A stretch of DNA of 38,363 bases from Candidatus Heimdallarchaeota archaeon (GTDB taxonomy: Archaea; Asgardarchaeota; Heimdallarchaeia; Heimdallarchaeales; Heimdallarchaeaceae). Below the pieces are notes generated by a model, which searched no databases, was not told the origin of the DNA, and saw only the letters and a list, made by a program, of their open reading frames with translations. Location of the stretch: the NCBI GenBank assembly GCA_023705945.1, contig BPTM01000115.1:1-38363 (forward strand), written 5' to 3'. A program made the position numbers and the translations under genes. Below, in pieces: positions 3,274-38,363 of the stretch; position 1 is the stretch's first letter, and each line of letters starts with the position of its first letter.

Positions 3274-5391
3274 ATGAAGATGAATAGAAAAAACATTGTG
3301 ATTTTAGTTTTGGTGCTTGGTAGTTTATTATTTTCAAGCATTCAAGTTAATGGAATACAGGAGTCTGCGAACGTTGTTATTCAGACCTCTGAAGAAGAAA
3401 CAAACATTTTACATAGTGTAACAGTTGAGATGGTAACTGACCTGCCCTCACATAGAGAAGACAAGATTCCTAGCATTTTACCTGATGGAATGTTTATAGC
3501 TCAGTTCAATGTGACAAACTTATCAAATATCAATTTGAATTCTCTTGAGCTTTCTATTTCTACTAATGAGTATGGATTCATCATGAACCCAATTATTTCT
3601 GCAACCGGTAGTTTAGCTCGGAACGAATCTTGGTTATCTGAAGGATACATTATCGATCTCATATCGCCCAGTACAGTTGTGTCAAAACCACTAGATTTAG
3701 CGATAATACTCGATCAATCGGGTTCAATGGGAGATGAAATTTCTGTACTTACTGACGATTTAGTTGGAGTTATAAATCAAATTAGTGCTAATGTTCCTGA
3801 TTTACAAACTGGTTTAATACTCTTTGGAGGTTCTTCTTCCAATCCGTATAATGATGAATCACTTGTAACTCCTCTAACTGAGGATATATCCACCATAGTA
3901 GAAGTTCTCAGTAATACAGAAGCTGGTGGCAGTCATGAGCCTTGGGGAGACGCTCTATGGGTTGCTCAGAACAGATTAGATTGGAGAGAAGATTCAGTCA
4001 AATTAATAGTTCTTATTACTGATGAGCCTTGTGATGGAGGAAATGTTATTGGTTATGGTGGAACAGAGGACTATGATGGGGAGCTTCTTTACGAATTATT
4101 TGCGAGTTTGAAATCTCAAGGATTTATCTTATGTACAGTTGCTGCAAGTGGTGCAGATGCATTAACACTTAAACAATTAGAAATTGCAGCGGAAACAACA
4201 GCTGGAACCTATATAGTTCTTGGTGGAGACGGTCCTCAAACTAGTGATCTCCCAGACATTATTGGAGAATTAGTCGTTAAATATGCTGTAGAGTTAAACC
4301 TTAGGATTGATGTATCTCTAAGCCATCTTAATCACGATTACATTAGAGAGTATAGAGAATTAACTTTTGTCGTACTGATAGATGATCTACCTCCAGAAAT
4401 TGATACTTGGGAATATTTCAGTGAGGATTTCTTCAATGATGATAAGATTGTTAATGTTTTATTTGAAATTAAAGATGTAACCGGAGTACCATTTGTCGAG
4501 ATATATTACCAATTCAATAATGTTAGTTTCTGGACAACCACTAGTGCGACTCACATAGACGAGGGTTCATATCTATTATCTTTAGTTTTTACAGAATCTG
4601 AAGACTATCTATATTACCAAGTTTATACAGAGGATTGGTTGGGTAATGATGTTCTCTCGGAAGTTTATACCATTGATTTACGACTTGCAGAAGAGAATTC
4701 AAGGTTATATGTGGGTAAGAAGAGAGAGCTTGTATTAGTACCATACCAACAGATCACCTTTAAGCTAATAGGAGCAGAAGAGGAAGGAGTAAAGGGTCCT
4801 GAAGAAAATTCCACAGCAATAATTTTCTCTGAAACTAACGTGGGATTCGATATTATTGCAGCAGATATAGATGAATCAACCATTATAGTTGATCAGGACA
4901 ATTGTACAATTGCAAGTTTCAATATTGAACCTGAACATACAGTAAAAGTGTCATTTATCTCATCGGAATTCGTTGAAATTCATGTAGTAAATGTACTCAG
5001 GGAGACCTTAGAATTTGCACAAGAAATAAACAAATATCTCGGAGTTGAAGATGTTTTTCTATATGAATTAGACAATAGAATGCATGAAACTAGAGAACGG
5101 AGTATAGTTGCAGATTCTCAGCTAGTTCAGACAAGTATTCTAGTTTTTGATGCTGAGACATGGGAACTTCTTATCAAAGGTAGCTCAGAGGTCGTTTTAC
5201 CAAATATCACATGTTACGTATTAATCTTTGCAACTTATCACACAGGAGATGTCTTTATCACCTTTACATATGATGACCTCTATGACCCTTGGGGGCATTA
5301 TTATTCAGGGGTCGCTGCATATTGGCCATTCTTTGCAGCAATACTAGGAATTGCCAGTATAGTCATTCTAAGAAAAAAACAGAAAAAGTGA
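3274..5391 (+). CDS. Secreted/membrane-anchored von Willebrand factor A (VWA) domain protein
   Basis: N-terminal signal-like helix; MIDAS 'DLAIILDQSGSMGDE', 'LIVLITDEPCDGG'; C-terminal TM 'YWPFFAAILGIASIVILRKKQKK'. Confidence 0.9.
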   Translation: MKMNRKNIVILVLVLGSLLFSSIQVNGIQESANVVIQTSEEETNILHSVTVEMVTDLPSHREDKIPSILPDGMFIAQFNVTNLSNINLNSLELSISTNEYGFIMNPIISATGSLARNESWLSEGYIIDLISPSTVVSKPLDLAIILDQSGSMGDEISVLTDDLVGVINQISANVPDLQTGLILFGGSSSNPYNDESLVTPLTEDISTIVEVLSNTEAGGSHEPWGDALWVAQNRLDWREDSVKLIVLITDEPCDGGNVIGYGGTEDYDGELLYELFASLKSQGFILCTVAASGADALTLKQLEIAAETTAGTYIVLGGDGPQTSDLPDIIGELVVKYAVELNLRIDVSLSHLNHDYIREYRELTFVVLIDDLPPEIDTWEYFSEDFFNDDKIVNVLFEIKDVTGVPFVEIYYQFNNVSFWTTTSATHIDEGSYLLSLVFTESEDYLYYQVYTEDWLGNDVLSEVYTIDLRLAEENSRLYVGKKRELVLVPYQQITFKLIGAEEEGVKGPEENSTAIIFSETNVGFDIIAADIDESTIIVDQDNCTIASFNIEPEHTVKVSFISSEFVEIHVVNVLRETLEFAQEINKYLGVEDVFLYELDNRMHETRERSIVADSQLVQTSILVFDAETWELLIKGSSEVVLPNITCYVLIFATYHTGDVFITFTYDDLYDPWGHYYSGVAAYWPFFAAILGIASIVILRKKQKK

Positions 5392-5395
5392 TAAA

Positions 5396-6709
5396 ATGAA
5401 ACCATCAAAATTTTTCTCCTTCTTTTTTTTAGTGGCACTATTATTAGTGGTATTCATTAACGTTCATACATTAGAAGCTAATGACCAAATTAATGAAATT
5501 ACAGGAGAGCTTTTTTACAAAAGAGTTGATTATGAACACAATAACTCTTTAGTTTATGTTTTTGTTGATGGAGAAGAATTGAATTTGAATATTCAATGCG
5601 ATACATGGTATAACACAGTAGGATCAGGATATCAAGGATTGCTAATTGAAATCAAAGATGACATTACAGAAGAGATTGTAAAAAGTTGGTTAATATTGTA
5701 TGGTGATAAAGTAGATCATCACTTCACGACGGAACTGGCTCTTGTAGGAGTTTATAAGATTGTATTCTCAGCACTCAATATTGACACCGTTGACTTTCGT
5801 TGGCAAATCGAAAATAACATTCCAATATGGACTTACGACATATCAATAAACAATCTAGAAAGTATCTATTTTGGAATTGAGCGCTTTGCAGAATACTATA
5901 CTAGCATTGAAAAGATGGTCATACAATTAACCACTCAAGAGTGGACAGATATTAAGTTCTCTGTTTCATTTGAAACTGTTGATAATCAAACAGTTGGAAA
6001 TTTTGTAGGAAATTTTAGTTTAGAAAGAAATATTGTAGAAACATTGAACTTTGAAGAAGGGTTAAGACCACATCAATGGTATAAGATTAGTTTTTATTGC
6101 CCAATTGATAGAAATGATAGTTTAGTAACCTTCAAGCTTTTCTATGATCATCAGCAACTAGAGAATACAGCTAGAATCTTTCTTTCTATAGGAGATATTG
6201 CATTAGATGAAATCCCTCTGGACACACTGCATGCTCATCCAAATTTTCTCTGGAAAAAACAAGAAATAATCATCCCGGATCCAAAACCACCTATGCTCCC
6301 GTATAATCCCATCGATACAATCAAGTATGTCCTCATCGCAATTTATCTAGTTCTATTTAACGGTACAATTCTTTGGGGACTCATTAGATTTGGGAAAGAA
6401 AAGAAGAAGAAGGATAATAAAATTGATGTGGCGTCTGAAAAATATAGCGCTATTGAAAATAACACTGTATCATATTCACCTGAAACCTATTATCCTGTAA
6501 ATTTTAAATCTGAAACACCAGAATATAATCTTGTTACAGATTCTGATATTAAGATAATTTGTTCAATTTGTCTCCAGATAATACAAAAACCAAAGGACAT
6601 CATCCGTTGTCCATCTTGCGATATTGCTTATCACAAACATCATTTGTATGAATGGTTGAAAATGAACAGAAATTGTCCAACATGTAAAGTAAAATTACGA
6701 ATAACTTAG
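5396..6709 (+). CDS. Single-pass membrane protein with extracellular beta-rich domain and C-terminal RING-like zinc domain
   Basis: Signal-like N-terminus; TM 'IKYVLIAIYLVLFNGTILWGLI'; C-terminus 'CSICLQIIQKPKDIIRCPSCDIAYHKHHLYEWLKMNRNCPTC'. Starts 4 nt after the VWA stop. Confidence 0.85.
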   Translation: MKPSKFFSFFFLVALLLVVFINVHTLEANDQINEITGELFYKRVDYEHNNSLVYVFVDGEELNLNIQCDTWYNTVGSGYQGLLIEIKDDITEEIVKSWLILYGDKVDHHFTTELALVGVYKIVFSALNIDTVDFRWQIENNIPIWTYDISINNLESIYFGIERFAEYYTSIEKMVIQLTTQEWTDIKFSVSFETVDNQTVGNFVGNFSLERNIVETLNFEEGLRPHQWYKISFYCPIDRNDSLVTFKLFYDHQQLENTARIFLSIGDIALDEIPLDTLHAHPNFLWKKQEIIIPDPKPPMLPYNPIDTIKYVLIAIYLVLFNGTILWGLIRFGKEKKKKDNKIDVASEKYSAIENNTVSYSPETYYPVNFKSETPEYNLVTDSDIKIICSICLQIIQKPKDIIRCPSCDIAYHKHHLYEWLKMNRNCPTCKVKLRIT

Positions 6710-17154: not shown

Positions 17155-17754
17155 TTAATCATACATTATTTCTTCTTTTTTCTTATCTTGTTCTGAAGAA
17201 GATTTCACACGTATGGTTTTTATTACCCCCCATATAACATTGAAACGTGGTACTTTACTAGCATAAACTCTGTAAGGGTAACCATATTTTTTTGACAAAT
17301 AACTATCCTTTTCATAAGATGCCAGAAAGAAAAGTGCAACTGCAATAACGGCAAATATATTCGAAAGGATAGAATTTGCTAGAAATATTAGAGCTAAAGC
17401 TAAAATAACTGTACCCAGTACTATTGGATGCCTTATATATGCAAAAACCAACATATTGCTAAAACTATTCAAATCCTTTGTGCCTTTTCTGTTTACCCAT
17501 CTTCTTTTGGAAGACAGTAATCCTAATAGTATCAGAAGAATACCTAATAGTGTTAAACTGCTTGCAACATGTTGGTAATAAGGGATTGGAGGGTACTGAC
17601 CTAGCGCAAATGACATTCCAAATATCAAGAAGATATATCCAAAAGATAAAATTGCTTCAAATTTGATTCTCCGGTATATTGCAAAAATCAACCATATTAC
17701 CAAGAGTATGGAAAGAAAGCCGGTTACAATCCAAAACCAAGTCGCATTAATCAC
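17155..17754 (-). CDS. ICMT/phospholipid-methyltransferase-like membrane protein
   Basis: C-terminal signature 'YIRHPIVLGTVILALALIF...YEKDSYLSKKYGYPYRVYASKVPRF' and multiple TM helices. Confidence 0.8.
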   Translation of the reverse strand: MINATWFWIVTGFLSILLVIWLIFAIYRRIKFEAILSFGYIFLIFGMSFALGQYPPIPYYQHVASSLTLLGILLILLGLLSSKRRWVNRKGTKDLNSFSNMLVFAYIRHPIVLGTVILALALIFLANSILSNIFAVIAVALFFLASYEKDSYLSKKYGYPYRVYASKVPRFNVIWGVIKTIRVKSSSEQDKKKEEIMYD

Positions 17755-18614: not shown

Positions 18615-19682
18615 TCAGATATTTGTTGAAAGAAGTATATTTCTTAATTCTAATACATCATTGAGTATCAAATATATCGCATTATCCAATGTTCGAAACA
18701 AATCTCCAACCGTTATCATTAACTGAACATTCTTCCTACGTTCTGTTTCAGCAAAAAGAGCTTTTTTGACTTTTAAATCTATATTCTCTGCTTTCTCAAA
18801 TGTTACTAAGAAGATTTTTGATTTAGGATCACGTTTTTTCAATTCATCAATATTTCTTATATGTCTAGTTGCTGATGTAATATCCTCACATGAAGCCAAA
18901 TAGATATAATAATCCATTTCTCTGAAATACTCTTTTCCAGCTATTGTTTCTAAGTCAAACAGAAGTGTAAGCACAATTCTCATAAAGTAAGTATCAATTC
19001 TGGAAACAAACTCATTTCTACTAAATTCATAGATAAAATCTATATTTTGATAATGGAATAGAGACTGAATTATCAGATTGTAGGAAAGCGAGTCAGAAGT
19101 AATTATCCCTATTTTGGTTCTTCGATTGAGGAGGTTAGAAATTTGTTGAATTGTATTAAAACGAGAAGATATATCACGTACTATATTCTCTAGACCCTTT
19201 GATTTTATCTGCTCATCTAGCAAGATGTTTTCGATAAGAGACTCACTTAAGGAAATCAAGTTGTTATCAGAGATTTGGATGATGTCTGTATATTGCTGTA
19301 AGAAAGATTCAACCGTATCATAGATTTTACTATGTCCAAACTTTACTTTCTGGTCGCATTGTTTGTCATAGATAATTAATAATTGACAGAATGACATATT
19401 GTTTGAAGCTTTTGATCTCATCACTCTATTTTCAGAATCCGCTTTACGAAAAGATACAATAAGTAAATGATATTTCCCAAAATGTGGAATGGGTAATGGT
19501 CCATATATCTCTAAATTGGGTGACGATGCAGATATAACGGGACTGTAGAAATTTCCCATTCCCATTATTTCTTCTTTTGAGATATCTGGGTTGGGTATAG
19601 AACTCCTTAAAGTCATTCCCATCTCATCTAAAACTAATAAGGAAACATAGGGGATGAATAAGGTATCTGTCATCACAATCAA
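18615..19682 (-). CDS. Longin/roadblock-like N-terminal domain fused to degenerate Ras-like (pseudo-GTPase) domain
   Basis: N-terminal 'YVSLLVLDEMGMTL...KYHLLIVSFRK...FCQLLIIYDK'; C-terminal Ras-fold pattern 'TKIGIITSDSLSYNLIIQSLF...IVLTLLFDLETIAGKEYFREMDYYIYLASCEDITSATRHIRNIDELKKRDPKSKIFLVTFEKAEN' lacking the P-loop Lys and NKxD. Confidence 0.55.
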   Translation of the reverse strand: MIVMTDTLFIPYVSLLVLDEMGMTLRSSIPNPDISKEEIMGMGNFYSPVISASSPNLEIYGPLPIPHFGKYHLLIVSFRKADSENRVMRSKASNNMSFCQLLIIYDKQCDQKVKFGHSKIYDTVESFLQQYTDIIQISDNNLISLSESLIENILLDEQIKSKGLENIVRDISSRFNTIQQISNLLNRRTKIGIITSDSLSYNLIIQSLFHYQNIDFIYEFSRNEFVSRIDTYFMRIVLTLLFDLETIAGKEYFREMDYYIYLASCEDITSATRHIRNIDELKKRDPKSKIFLVTFEKAENIDLKVKKALFAETERRKNVQLMITVGDLFRTLDNAIYLILNDVLELRNILLSTNI

Positions 19683-19716: not shown

Positions 19717-20247
19717 TTACAAACTGTTTTCCTTCTTCTTATCCTTTGTGAAAGAATCTTCATACAATTTTTCAATATGTATTCTACCTTTCATAGGATC
19801 TTTCTCAATAAGAGCTTCGAGAATACCGAAAAGTAATATGATACGACACAAACGAATCAAATGGTAACCTATTCCAATACTATTTCGTACTACAGTACTA
19901 GCAGGAACCAGAAAGATGATACTTTCAGTCCAGAAAGTATTTGCAGATAAATGGTAATTTACAGATAGTTCCATAGCATAAGACATACCTATAGCGATAG
20001 CGATAAGCAAAAGTCTCACAATTCTACTATTTGAACTTTTTAGGAATTTAATTCCATAAAGTAATTCAACATCTTGTAATCCAACAAGCAGTGTTGCTGC
20101 AAGTAGAAACCAGAGAGGAGGAGATTCATGTAAGTCAATCCAGTTAATAGCAAATCCCTCAGAATCATACATAGCTGGAGTTAAAACGCTTACAAATGCT
20201 AAAGTAAAAACCAGCAATGATAACGAGGAAGATAATCTCATCGACAA
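19717..20247 (-). CDS. Multi-TM membrane protein, unknown function
   Basis: 176 aa with about 4 hydrophobic segments; charged C-terminal tail. Confidence 0.75.
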   Translation of the reverse strand: MSMRLSSSLSLLVFTLAFVSVLTPAMYDSEGFAINWIDLHESPPLWFLLAATLLVGLQDVELLYGIKFLKSSNSRIVRLLLIAIAIGMSYAMELSVNYHLSANTFWTESIIFLVPASTVVRNSIGIGYHLIRLCRIILLFGILEALIEKDPMKGRIHIEKLYEDSFTKDKKKENSL

Positions 20248-22784: not shown

Positions 22785-23654
22785 TCAATCTTTGTTAACT
22801 AACAGTTGAGATGTTTGTAATAGGTCGTTTATTTTTCTCTTTATTTGATACTCATCTGACAGAATTGCAAAAGATACTTTGAATTGATGAATATTTTCGA
22901 GCTTACCAACCAGATTTGATAAAACTGAAGCTATTTCATTGATTGATTCATGGCCTTCTTCTTTTGTGATTATGCCTAGAAAAGTAACAAATAAATCAAA
23001 TCTTCTTTTCTGAGAGAGAAGATTTATCATATTGGTTGCTTTCACTACTTGCATTTTGTCCAAGGGATTAAAAATAAATAAGAAACCCTCTGATAATTCG
23101 AAGAGAAGATTGGCAAGAGAAGTTATTTCACGTCTATAATTAATCACACAGAATTGACATTCTACACTCTCATTACCTATACTTATTTCTTCATTTATCG
23201 GTTCGTATCCACCCTCATAATTATATGTAACTTGAAGATTTCCTTTGGTTAAGTATTTGTCAATAACTCCTTGTACCAGAAAGTTTTCTCCATAAACAGT
23301 AATCTTTACCTTTGCTTTTTTTTCCAATCGTAAATTTCTAGCAAAGTCTTCCTGTATTATTTCCTTTGATAGTAAAGAAGACGGTGAGTATGCCCTAGGT
23401 CCTGTACTCTGGTACCAAGAAACAAAGTTTTCTTTGATTTCATCAGTAACATCACGTACAAGTTCAGGTGTAATAAATATTTTTTTGCCAGAAACTGCTA
23501 ATCCGAAGGCCATAGGTAGCTTATTGATGAAATCAGCGAGATCTTGAGAATTTATACTAATTATTGATGAGAGTATTTCTAATTCCCAGACATTCTTCTT
23601 ATCGATTAGAGAAAGAAGTTGCTCAGCAATAGCATTTTCCTTTTCTGAACTCAT
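22785..23654 (-). CDS. N-terminal helical/winged-helix-like region fused to degenerate Ras-like (pseudo-GTPase) domain
   Basis: 'KVKITVYGENFLVQGVIDKYLTKGN...VECQFCVINYRREITSLANLLFELSEGFLFIFNPLDKMQVVKATNMINLLSQKRRFDLFVTFLGIITKEEG...FKVSFAILSDEYQIKRKINDLL' follows the Ras-like strand/helix order without GxxxxGKS/T. Confidence 0.6.
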   Translation of the reverse strand: MSSEKENAIAEQLLSLIDKKNVWELEILSSIISINSQDLADFINKLPMAFGLAVSGKKIFITPELVRDVTDEIKENFVSWYQSTGPRAYSPSSLLSKEIIQEDFARNLRLEKKAKVKITVYGENFLVQGVIDKYLTKGNLQVTYNYEGGYEPINEEISIGNESVECQFCVINYRREITSLANLLFELSEGFLFIFNPLDKMQVVKATNMINLLSQKRRFDLFVTFLGIITKEEGHESINEIASVLSNLVGKLENIHQFKVSFAILSDEYQIKRKINDLLQTSQLLVNKD

Positions 23655-26121: not shown

Positions 26122-27219
26122 TTAAGCCATAAGAGTAAAATTTTCCTCTAATAGTGTTTGTACATGTTCAATTTGCTCCTCTGTTAGCATTTCATTTGCT
26201 TTGAAATCCATGAGATAACTATCCAACTCTTTCATAACCAGTTTTGTGGCTTTAGCTAATACTTTGCTTGAAATCTTCGTTTGTATTATAATGAAGATTT
26301 TTTCTCCTACATAGAATGACATGGTAGAGGAACTAGTTTTCAATTCTCTGAATTGCTCTTCCTCGGTTGTAGCTACATATTCACGAACAAAGTGAAAAAG
26401 TCCAGCAAGATATCCTGAAGCTGCTATTATTTTTTCTTCAAAAGATATCCTTCTACCTCGTAGAGGAGAATAACCTATCAGAGGGTTACCTTCTCTATCT
26501 ACAACTAAAATCGCCTCAATACCATGAGATAGTGATTGGCTTTGATAGAATGAAACTATTAAGACAACAACGAAAGTATATGCGAGATCTGCTATATTAA
26601 AAGCTAGAATATCTTCTTCAAGCATCTTCCTTCGTAAAGTTACTAGAACTGCAAAACCAATTAATAGTATAATAAGAAGTAAGGTTATGTCCAGTTTTAC
26701 CTTTAATCGCTTATTTTTTGATGAGGATGCTAGTTTGAAGTATCGTATATAGACACCTAGTAAGAGGAAGGAACTTACTAAAATTAAAGAACCATAAATG
26801 AATCCATAAATATCTGTCAAAATAACATCATAAATTGATATAGTTAAAAGTTTGAAACTCTCTATTGATCCATCTAGTGGTATAACTATGAAATAAAGTG
26901 CTAAAGTAGATAGACTGATTGCAAGAATTCTACTAGCTCTGGACGTTATAATCATAGATTGTTCTAAACAAGCTGCAAAAAGGATAATTAAGGCAACTGC
27001 TTGAACAACCTGTAAAGCACGATATAGAATTAATAATGTTGGATTCTGGTTTTCTAATACCTCAATTATTTCAAATATTCCATAAGATACGAGAAATGCT
27101 ACCCATAGTTTATAGAACGGATTTTGTCTTTTAATTCCCCAGTACGTTGCAATAGCTCCGCCCAATATTAACGCTACGGCTACAACATATTTGAAGATAA
27201 TATACGTTTGGTCAAACAT
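26122..27219 (-). CDS. 7TM membrane protein with C-terminal roadblock/longin-like domain
   Basis: About seven hydrophobic segments over 230 aa, then 'GIEAILVVDREGNPLIGYSPLRGRRISFEEKIIAASGYLAGLFHFVREYV...FYVGEKIFIIIQTKISSKVLAKATKLVMKELDSYL'. Confidence 0.65.
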   Translation of the reverse strand: MFDQTYIIFKYVVAVALILGGAIATYWGIKRQNPFYKLWVAFLVSYGIFEIIEVLENQNPTLLILYRALQVVQAVALIILFAACLEQSMIITSRASRILAISLSTLALYFIVIPLDGSIESFKLLTISIYDVILTDIYGFIYGSLILVSSFLLLGVYIRYFKLASSSKNKRLKVKLDITLLLIILLIGFAVLVTLRRKMLEEDILAFNIADLAYTFVVVLIVSFYQSQSLSHGIEAILVVDREGNPLIGYSPLRGRRISFEEKIIAASGYLAGLFHFVREYVATTEEEQFRELKTSSSTMSFYVGEKIFIIIQTKISSKVLAKATKLVMKELDSYLMDFKANEMLTEEQIEHVQTLLEENFTLMA

Positions 27220-38035: not shown

Positions 38036-38363
38036 ATGTCTCAAAGAAGCTTCAAAGTATCATTATGTGGGGAACCAGGAGTAGGAAAAACTTCCATAGC
38101 TCTTCGTCAAGCGCAAAACTCTTTTCCTATTACTCATCAACCTACTTTAGGAGCTAATTTTCTTATATGGAATACAACTATTGAAGGCGAAGAAATCAGA
38201 CTCATTATTGGTGATTCTGGTTCTCAAGAACGTTTTTACTCTGTTCTCCCAACGTATTTTCAAGGATCAGCAGCTGCAGTATTGATTTTTGACATTACAA
38301 ATAAGGAGAGCTTTGAGAAACTTACTTTTTGGTTAGAAAAACTTGAGGAAGGTGTCGGTAAAA
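38036..38363 (+). CDS. Ras/Rab-like small GTPase, partial (3' end outside window)
   Basis: Hand translation: 'MSQRSFKVSLCGEPGVGKTSIALRQAQNSFPITHQPTLGANFLIWNTTIEGEEIRLIIGDSGSQERFYSVLPTYFQGSAAAVLIFDITNKESFEKLTFWLEKLEEGVGK'. Confidence 0.93.
   Translation, partial: MSQRSFKVSLCGEPGVGKTSIALRQAQNSFPITHQPTLGANFLIWNTTIEGEEIRLIIGDSGSQERFYSVLPTYFQGSAAAVLIFDITNKESFEKLTFWLEKLEEGVGK

Follow-up and report, generated by a model that had tools for sequence, protein, structure and literature searches.

The window analysed here, a stretch of 38,363 nucleotides from a Candidatus Heimdallarchaeota archaeon (assembly GCA_023705945.1, contig BPTM01000115.1, positions 1 to 38,363), encodes on its minus strand a soluble predicted protein of two domains, in which a longin fold is followed by a long helix and by a Ras-like fold that lacks the nucleotide-binding motifs. 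Judged by its sequence, the C-terminal domain classifies as a class (i) pseudo-GTPase, the loss of nucleotide binding being read from the motifs. The protein is somewhat more probably than otherwise an adaptor or regulator that forms one half of a small-GTPase switch at the membrane, with an Arf-family GTPase as its client. Its open reading frame (18615-19682, minus strand), confirmed to be present in the window, had been described in an original prediction as a pseudo-GTPase with a longin/roadblock-like N-terminal half. The gene and the parts of its product are as follows, with residues counted from ATG 19673:

18615-19673, minus strand: coding sequence of the longin and pseudo-GTPase protein, 352 amino acids (aa), start ATG 19673 (kept start and dN/dS).
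19272-19673, minus strand: N-terminal module with a predicted longin fold, residues 1-134, signature GPLPxP ... D.R (AlphaFold2 and Foldseek).
19485-19502, minus strand: GPLPIP signature, residues 58-63, the best-conserved stretch of the module.
19131-19268, minus strand: predicted long linker helix of 46 residues, 136-181 (AlphaFold2).
18618-19121, minus strand: predicted C-terminal Ras-like pseudo-GTPase domain, residues 185-352 (AlphaFold2 element order and Foldseek).
19086-19097, minus strand: degenerate P-loop equivalent SDSL, residues 193-196, without GxxxxGK[ST].
18912-18962, minus strand: switch II equivalent LFDLETIAGKEYFREMD, residues 238-254, with the second Ras helix mostly lost.
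18783-18818, minus strand: degenerate equivalent of G4 (NKxD), KIFLVTFEKAEN, residues 286-297.

The length of 352 aa follows from the alignment, in which each of the 18 full-length homologs starts at the position of ATG 19673. This codon, M4 of the originally quoted translation, is almost certainly the true start; the homologs do not conserve the TTG listed at 19682. Orthologs with 57-94% identity occur in the remaining genomes of the source genus and in genus g2. One ortholog, with 36% identity, lies in genome G009, and the homologs from family f7 (L039 and L040) share 17-18% across the whole length; all named related records are from Candidatus Heimdallarchaeota. Scans of the whole protein and its homologs with Pfam and NCBIfam recognised no family. 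Whether started from the full-length protein, from either of its domains or from an operon partner of 297 aa, profile searches of PDB sequences gave spurious matches only; designed trefoil-knot proteins (E 0.002) were taken as chance. Codon comparison with the two nearest relatives indicates strong purifying selection on the dead domain, at a dN/dS of about 0.05-0.07 (0.051 and 0.071), near the values of the longin domain (0.058 and 0.050).

An AlphaFold2 model of the full protein, built from a 41-sequence alignment, reached a mean predicted local distance difference test score of 86.6 and a predicted TM-score (pTM) of 0.58; the N-domain modelled alone with 45 sequences reached a pTM of 0.83. 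The N-domain consists of strands at residues 9-16 and 19-25, a helix at 33-48, strands at 55-61, 68-78 and 93-103 and a helix at 104-126, the longin order b-b-a-b-b-b-a(-a) with a five-stranded sheet. Within it G58, P59 and P61 are close to invariant across 41-45 sequences. In Foldseek against the PDB its best match was the Lokiarchaeal longin 8yqg (E 1.4e-5, TM-score 0.54, 14% identity), followed more weakly (E 0.003-0.05) by the longins of Lst4, the SEA complex, SMCR8-C9orf72, FLCN, Ykt6 and sedlin. The helix that precedes the first strand pair in roadblocks is absent: the model opens with a strand and carries its extra helices at the C-terminal end, as longins do. Because of this element order and the Foldseek longin matches, the domain is assigned as a longin and not as a roadblock; of the two folds originally proposed for the N-terminus the longin stood (residues 1-130), with the Lokiarchaeal longin as best match, and the roadblock did not. 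On the model, the N-domain represents a new, unnamed longin-fold sequence family.

Residues 186-349 of the model are arranged in the order of the Ras fold, with a strand at 186-192, a helix at 195-205, the hairpin of second and third strands at 223-228 and 231-237, and then a strand at 255-260, a helix at 265-281, a strand at 286-294, a helix at 300-312, a strand at 316-321 and a helix at 325-349; the second Ras helix is almost gone. Foldseek of the full model against the PDB gave 86 matches below 0.001. Nearly all of the best 50 of these 86 were small GTPases, with TM-scores to target up to 0.63, among them microsporidian Sar1 (6vs4, 3.1e-6), the Asgard HodArfR1 (8oul, 3.5e-5), Arl5, Arf1, Rab and Rheb; the third-ranked match was the longin domain of a Lokiarchaeal protein. 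The stretches quoted in the original prediction sit where it had placed them, TKIGIIT forming strand 186-192 and SYNLIIQSLF the first helix, and the segment read as beta4-alpha3-beta5 (DYYIYLA..TSATRHIRNIDELKKR..KIFLVTFEK) corresponds to strand 255-260, helix 265-281 and strand 286-294. The stretch likened to DTAGQERF, LLFDLETIAGKEYFREM, does lie at the switch II position between strands 231-237 and 255-260, but its likeness is not above chance, and in the 36%-identical ortholog L038 its AG is lost. The lack of the P-loop lysine was borne out, as neither G1 (GxxxxGK[S/T]) nor [N/T]KxD at the G4 position was found in any of 18 homologs; a single NKID, in L040, sits in the hairpin region and not at the G4 position. 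The small-GTPase layout is hence upheld because of the predicted structure, not the motif. A Ras-like fold had been expected at about residues 185-340, with a finding of neither this nor a longin fold named as refutation; AlphaFold2 and Foldseek returned both, the Ras-like order extending over residues of about 185-349 and matching small GTPases of the PDB. Conservation of the C-domain peaks in the first strand, the first helix, the second and third strands and the last helix, and is lowest near the lost guanine pocket, in the third helix, fifth strand and fourth helix.

An intact GTPase accompanies the protein in relatives from family f7. In genomes G061, G062 and G063 the genes stand in the tandem order multi-transmembrane (TM) protein, protein of 297-298 aa, Arf-like GTPase, longin plus dead-domain protein. 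The longin gene is thus the last of a four-gene operon, lying 7, 16 and 4 bp behind the GTPase gene in G062, G061 and G063, respectively, and in G063 it is interrupted by the contig end; in L189 the last three genes of the operon cover 3678-6218, with the GTPase at 4580-5164 and the longin plus dead-domain gene at 5172-6218; the Arf-like GTPase has intact motifs (PF00025, E 2.4e-23). The N-domains of f7 and of f1, the family of the window, are clearly the same (E 5e-25 and 5e-26). Genome G009 has two copies: one is of f1 type and has the TM partner beside it, the second is of f7 type, degraded, and has an Arf-like remnant upstream. In G060 the N-module occurs in a protein (L080) whose gene is two genes away from one for an Arf-like GTPase (PF00025, 1e-37); a multi-TM gene is there as well.

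In G030, G031, G032 and G037, too, relatives of the 297-aa operon protein have genes for Arf-like GTPases and multi-TM proteins as neighbours. Members of this family of 297-320 aa (L189:3678-4571, L195:301-1197, with relatives in L223, L226, L227 and L230) stand beside Arf-like GTPase and multi-TM genes in several Heimdallarchaeia families and had no database match. On visual inspection, this protein family may have a DENN-like second half (KxxVIGExxxxIxFFxxxxxxIP).

Longin/roadblock dimers serve as GTPase platforms (PMC10933270). In the mechanism proposed here, the longin domain would dimerise, with itself or with another longin or roadblock protein, and form a platform that binds a small GTPase. 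By analogy with the f7 operon, in which the Arf gene lies 4-16 bp upstream, the client would be an Arf-family GTPase. The dead domain, unable to switch, would offer a fixed docking surface formed by its conserved part (strands one to three with the first and last helices) and might replace the second GTPase of a Rag-like pair. The TM partner encoded next to the gene (TM176, see below) would hold the complex at the membrane. Among the roles considered (GEF, i.e. guanine nucleotide exchange factor; GAP, i.e. GTPase-activating protein; effector or scaffold) a GEF/GAP-type scaffold is preferred.

Several results weigh against this reading. The relative placing of the two domains is uncertain because of the pTM of the full model, and the N-domain is without a sequence match to any longin family model in Pfam or among PDB sequences. 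Of the C-domains of f7, that of L040 matched f1 best, above all shuffles and marginally (E 0.0012); those of L039 and L075 were not above shuffles, and the f7 C-domain model gave no significant match to f1 sequences. The G060 protein L080 had matched the full profile as a candidate longin plus dead-domain protein, but in the shuffle test its C-terminal part was not demonstrably the same domain, and it therefore counts for the N-module only. No intact GTPase gene adjoins the focal gene in the f1 genomes examined, so that the Arf client of the f1 protein is carried over from its relatives. In profile-profile comparison with the Ras and Arf profiles of the genome itself the C-domain scored 17-20, with controls from unrelated families reaching 23.7. 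Since these scores are not above the controls, the GTPase kinship of the C-domain rests on structure, and sequence homology is not claimed.

A C-domain without profile-level likeness to Ras or Arf and with all G motifs gone could also be a generic Rossmann-like domain, for example a receiver-like one, that is not GTPase-derived and matches GTPases through convergence of fold. This is very improbable: the best 50 of the 86 Foldseek matches are nearly all from the Ras superfamily, with TM-scores up to 0.63 and no receivers or flavodoxins among them, and the strand hairpin and the succession of strands and helices in the model are Ras-like. A role as sensor or adaptor without a GTPase client, with the N-module as a general signalling or dimerisation domain and the Ras-like domain as a protein-binding scaffold for membrane partners, is unlikely, although it deserves consideration. 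It would agree with the fusions of the N-module to PAS, receiver, TPR and extracellular beta-helix domains and with the f1 gene, which is always accompanied by TM176 and other membrane genes and never adjoins an intact GTPase; the direct operon partner in f7, however, is an Arf GTPase, and longin platforms typically bind small GTPases (PMC10933270).

The eukaryotic DENN module consists of a longin followed by a P-loop-like alpha/beta domain without nucleotide-binding residues (PMC3521125). By analogy, the layout of our protein, an N-terminal longin and then a motif-less P-loop-like alpha/beta domain, resembles that of FLCN, FNIP/Lst4, SMCR8-C9orf72, Npr2/Npr3 and DENND. It could hence belong to the DENN modules as an archaeal representative, or be their forerunner, and act as GEF or GAP on an Arf-, Rag- or Rab-like GTPase. 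The next structural neighbours of the N-domain, Lst4 (4zy8), the SEA complex (8adl), SMCR8-C9orf72 (6v4u and 7mge) and FLCN (8dhb), which we take to be DENN-related proteins, would fit this proposal, as would the Arf GTPase of the related operons. Yet these matches are weak (E 0.003-0.05) and convergence is easy, and the best 50 of the 86 full-model matches were small GTPases and one longin, with no DENN protein spanning both domains. Moreover, Pfam gave no DENN match, the hairpin of second and third strands is Ras-like, and no all-helical d-DENN follows the final helix of the Ras-like domain, where the protein stops. A DENN identity is accordingly a distinctly doubtful one; because the full-model search favours GTPases and d-DENN is absent, the protein is not filed under DENN.

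The adaptor or regulator reading, with an Arf-family client, was compared with further systems. In strain MK-D1, 26 of the 74 small-GTPase-related sequences are longin or roadblock fusions, and genes for longin, roadblock or TRAPPC3 proteins do not generally share operons with GTPase genes (PMC10933270). Our protein shares with these Rag-like Asgard fusions the combination of longin or roadblock and Ras-like fold in one chain, and differs from them, described as they are as GTPases, in that it has lost the nucleotide motifs and starts with the longin, whose module belongs to an unnamed family, and in that the relatives' operon holds a separate Arf. The original view that the fusion is unusual thus fails for the fusion as such, which is common in Asgards, and remains valid for the dead GTPase part, the domain order and the longin family. 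Eukaryotes have pseudo-GTPases that bind no nucleotide, and the loss of at least one G motif defines the group; those of class (i), such as p190RhoGAP pG1/pG2, CENP-M and fungal dynein LIC, likewise combine a Ras-like fold with degraded G motifs and an expected adaptor or regulatory role (PMC5593906). The protein described here differs in being archaeal and in that "dead" is read from motifs. To our knowledge, no longin domain occurs in class (i) pseudoGTPases.

In the receptor of the signal recognition particle (SRP), the SRX longin of SRalpha is followed by a GTPase domain and pairs with the Arf-related, membrane-anchored SRbeta. The C-terminal GTPase of SRalpha is an active SRP-type NG domain, unlike the dead domain here, and SRX (2fh5) matches the N-domain only weakly (Foldseek E 0.52). 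The nearest solved structure to the N-domain, the Lokiarchaeal Roadblock-Longin protein 8yqg, is dimeric; its partner domain is a roadblock, whereas here it is a pseudo-GTPase.

Two conserved neighbours of the gene in family f1 are:

19717-20247, minus strand: small multi-TM protein (TM176), 176 aa, 43 bp upstream of the focal gene, with about 4 hydrophobic segments.
22785-23654, minus strand: protein with a wHTH/DDRGK-like (winged helix-turn-helix) N-terminus and a second degenerate, GTPase-like C-terminus, a syntenic neighbour.

In each of the 20 f1 genomes compared, counting the window, the gene for TM176 immediately precedes the focal gene in the same orientation; TM176 is probably the operon partner and membrane anchor of the longin and pseudo-GTPase protein. 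The protein at 22785-23654 was seen in loci whose contigs extend far enough and adjoins the focal gene in G009; it is probably the "first" pseudo-GTPase of the original prediction. One wHTH-GTPase-like protein (G000:C140, L172) carries the P-loop lysine. The conserved block further holds three multi-TM genes, two of them alike by BLAST (E 7e-4), and a TauE-type transporter. In more distant relatives of the genus, the focal protein retains ~70% identity versus about 30-50% for the membrane proteins of the block. Syntenic across the family is also 26122-27219 (minus strand), with seven hydrophobic segments and then a domain of ~120 aa that possibly is longin/roadblock-like (EAILVVDREGNPLIGYSP...). 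A membrane protein at 17155-17754 (minus strand), syntenic with the block, has a sub-threshold match (E 4e-4) to PF04140, isoprenylcysteine carboxyl methyltransferase, an enzyme that modifies prenylated GTPases in eukaryotes. Elsewhere in the window, 38054-38350 (plus strand) is the beginning of a Ras-family GTPase interrupted by the contig end, and 5396-6709 (plus strand) encodes a secreted or TM protein that has a RING finger at its C-terminus (PF13639, E 8e-7) and adjoins a VWA protein. The source genome contains >30 Ras-superfamily loci.

The longin module extends well beyond this protein. A 45-sequence profile with the signature GPLPxP and D.R found it in 74 of 231 Asgard genomes; in the class to which the window belongs (families f1-f7), 59 of 60 genomes have it, with 3-15 copies apiece. 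It is fused to PAS (L088, L104, L108, L083, L099), receiver (L101, L110, L113) and TPR domains (L081, L095, L043) and to extracellular beta-helices with TM segments (L078, L090, L100, L105), and also stands ahead of small uncharacterised domains. Pfam did not recognise the module in the proteins scanned, nor did NCBIfam in the four scanned. A quick tree split in two with support (SH-aLRT 94): the majority of longin-last sensor fusions grouped on one side and longin-first proteins, for the most part, on the other. Longin-last proteins of ~300 aa were rejected as GTPase-longin fusions, Pfam having assigned PAS or receiver domains instead. Through the receiver fusions (L101, L110, L112, L113), two-component signalling might be connected to small GTPases.

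Longin-GTPase fusions themselves were already known in Asgards; the dead fusion paired with a live Arf in relatives is new. We infer that the GTPase half of the fusion turned into a fixed partner and that the protein regulates an Arf-like GTPase. As a far-reaching and rather improbable extension, the family could represent how the DENN module looked in archaea: in a fusion of longin and GTPase, the GTPase would have died and become the central DENN domain. Heimdallarchaeia would still operate it from a single operon together with its Arf client, a partner protein and a receptor in the membrane, and through the wider longin module sensors of the PAS, receiver and extracellular kinds would be connected to the small-GTPase network of Asgards. 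Asgard genomes encode dozens of small GTPases, and regulators are hard to pair with them. The f7 gene pair names a regulator and its client directly, and GEF or GAP activity thereby becomes testable in the closest archaeal relatives of eukaryotes. The finding points to archaeal pseudo-GTPases and to a longin module that ties sensory domains to the GTPase machinery, and the layout may bear on the origin of the DENN module.
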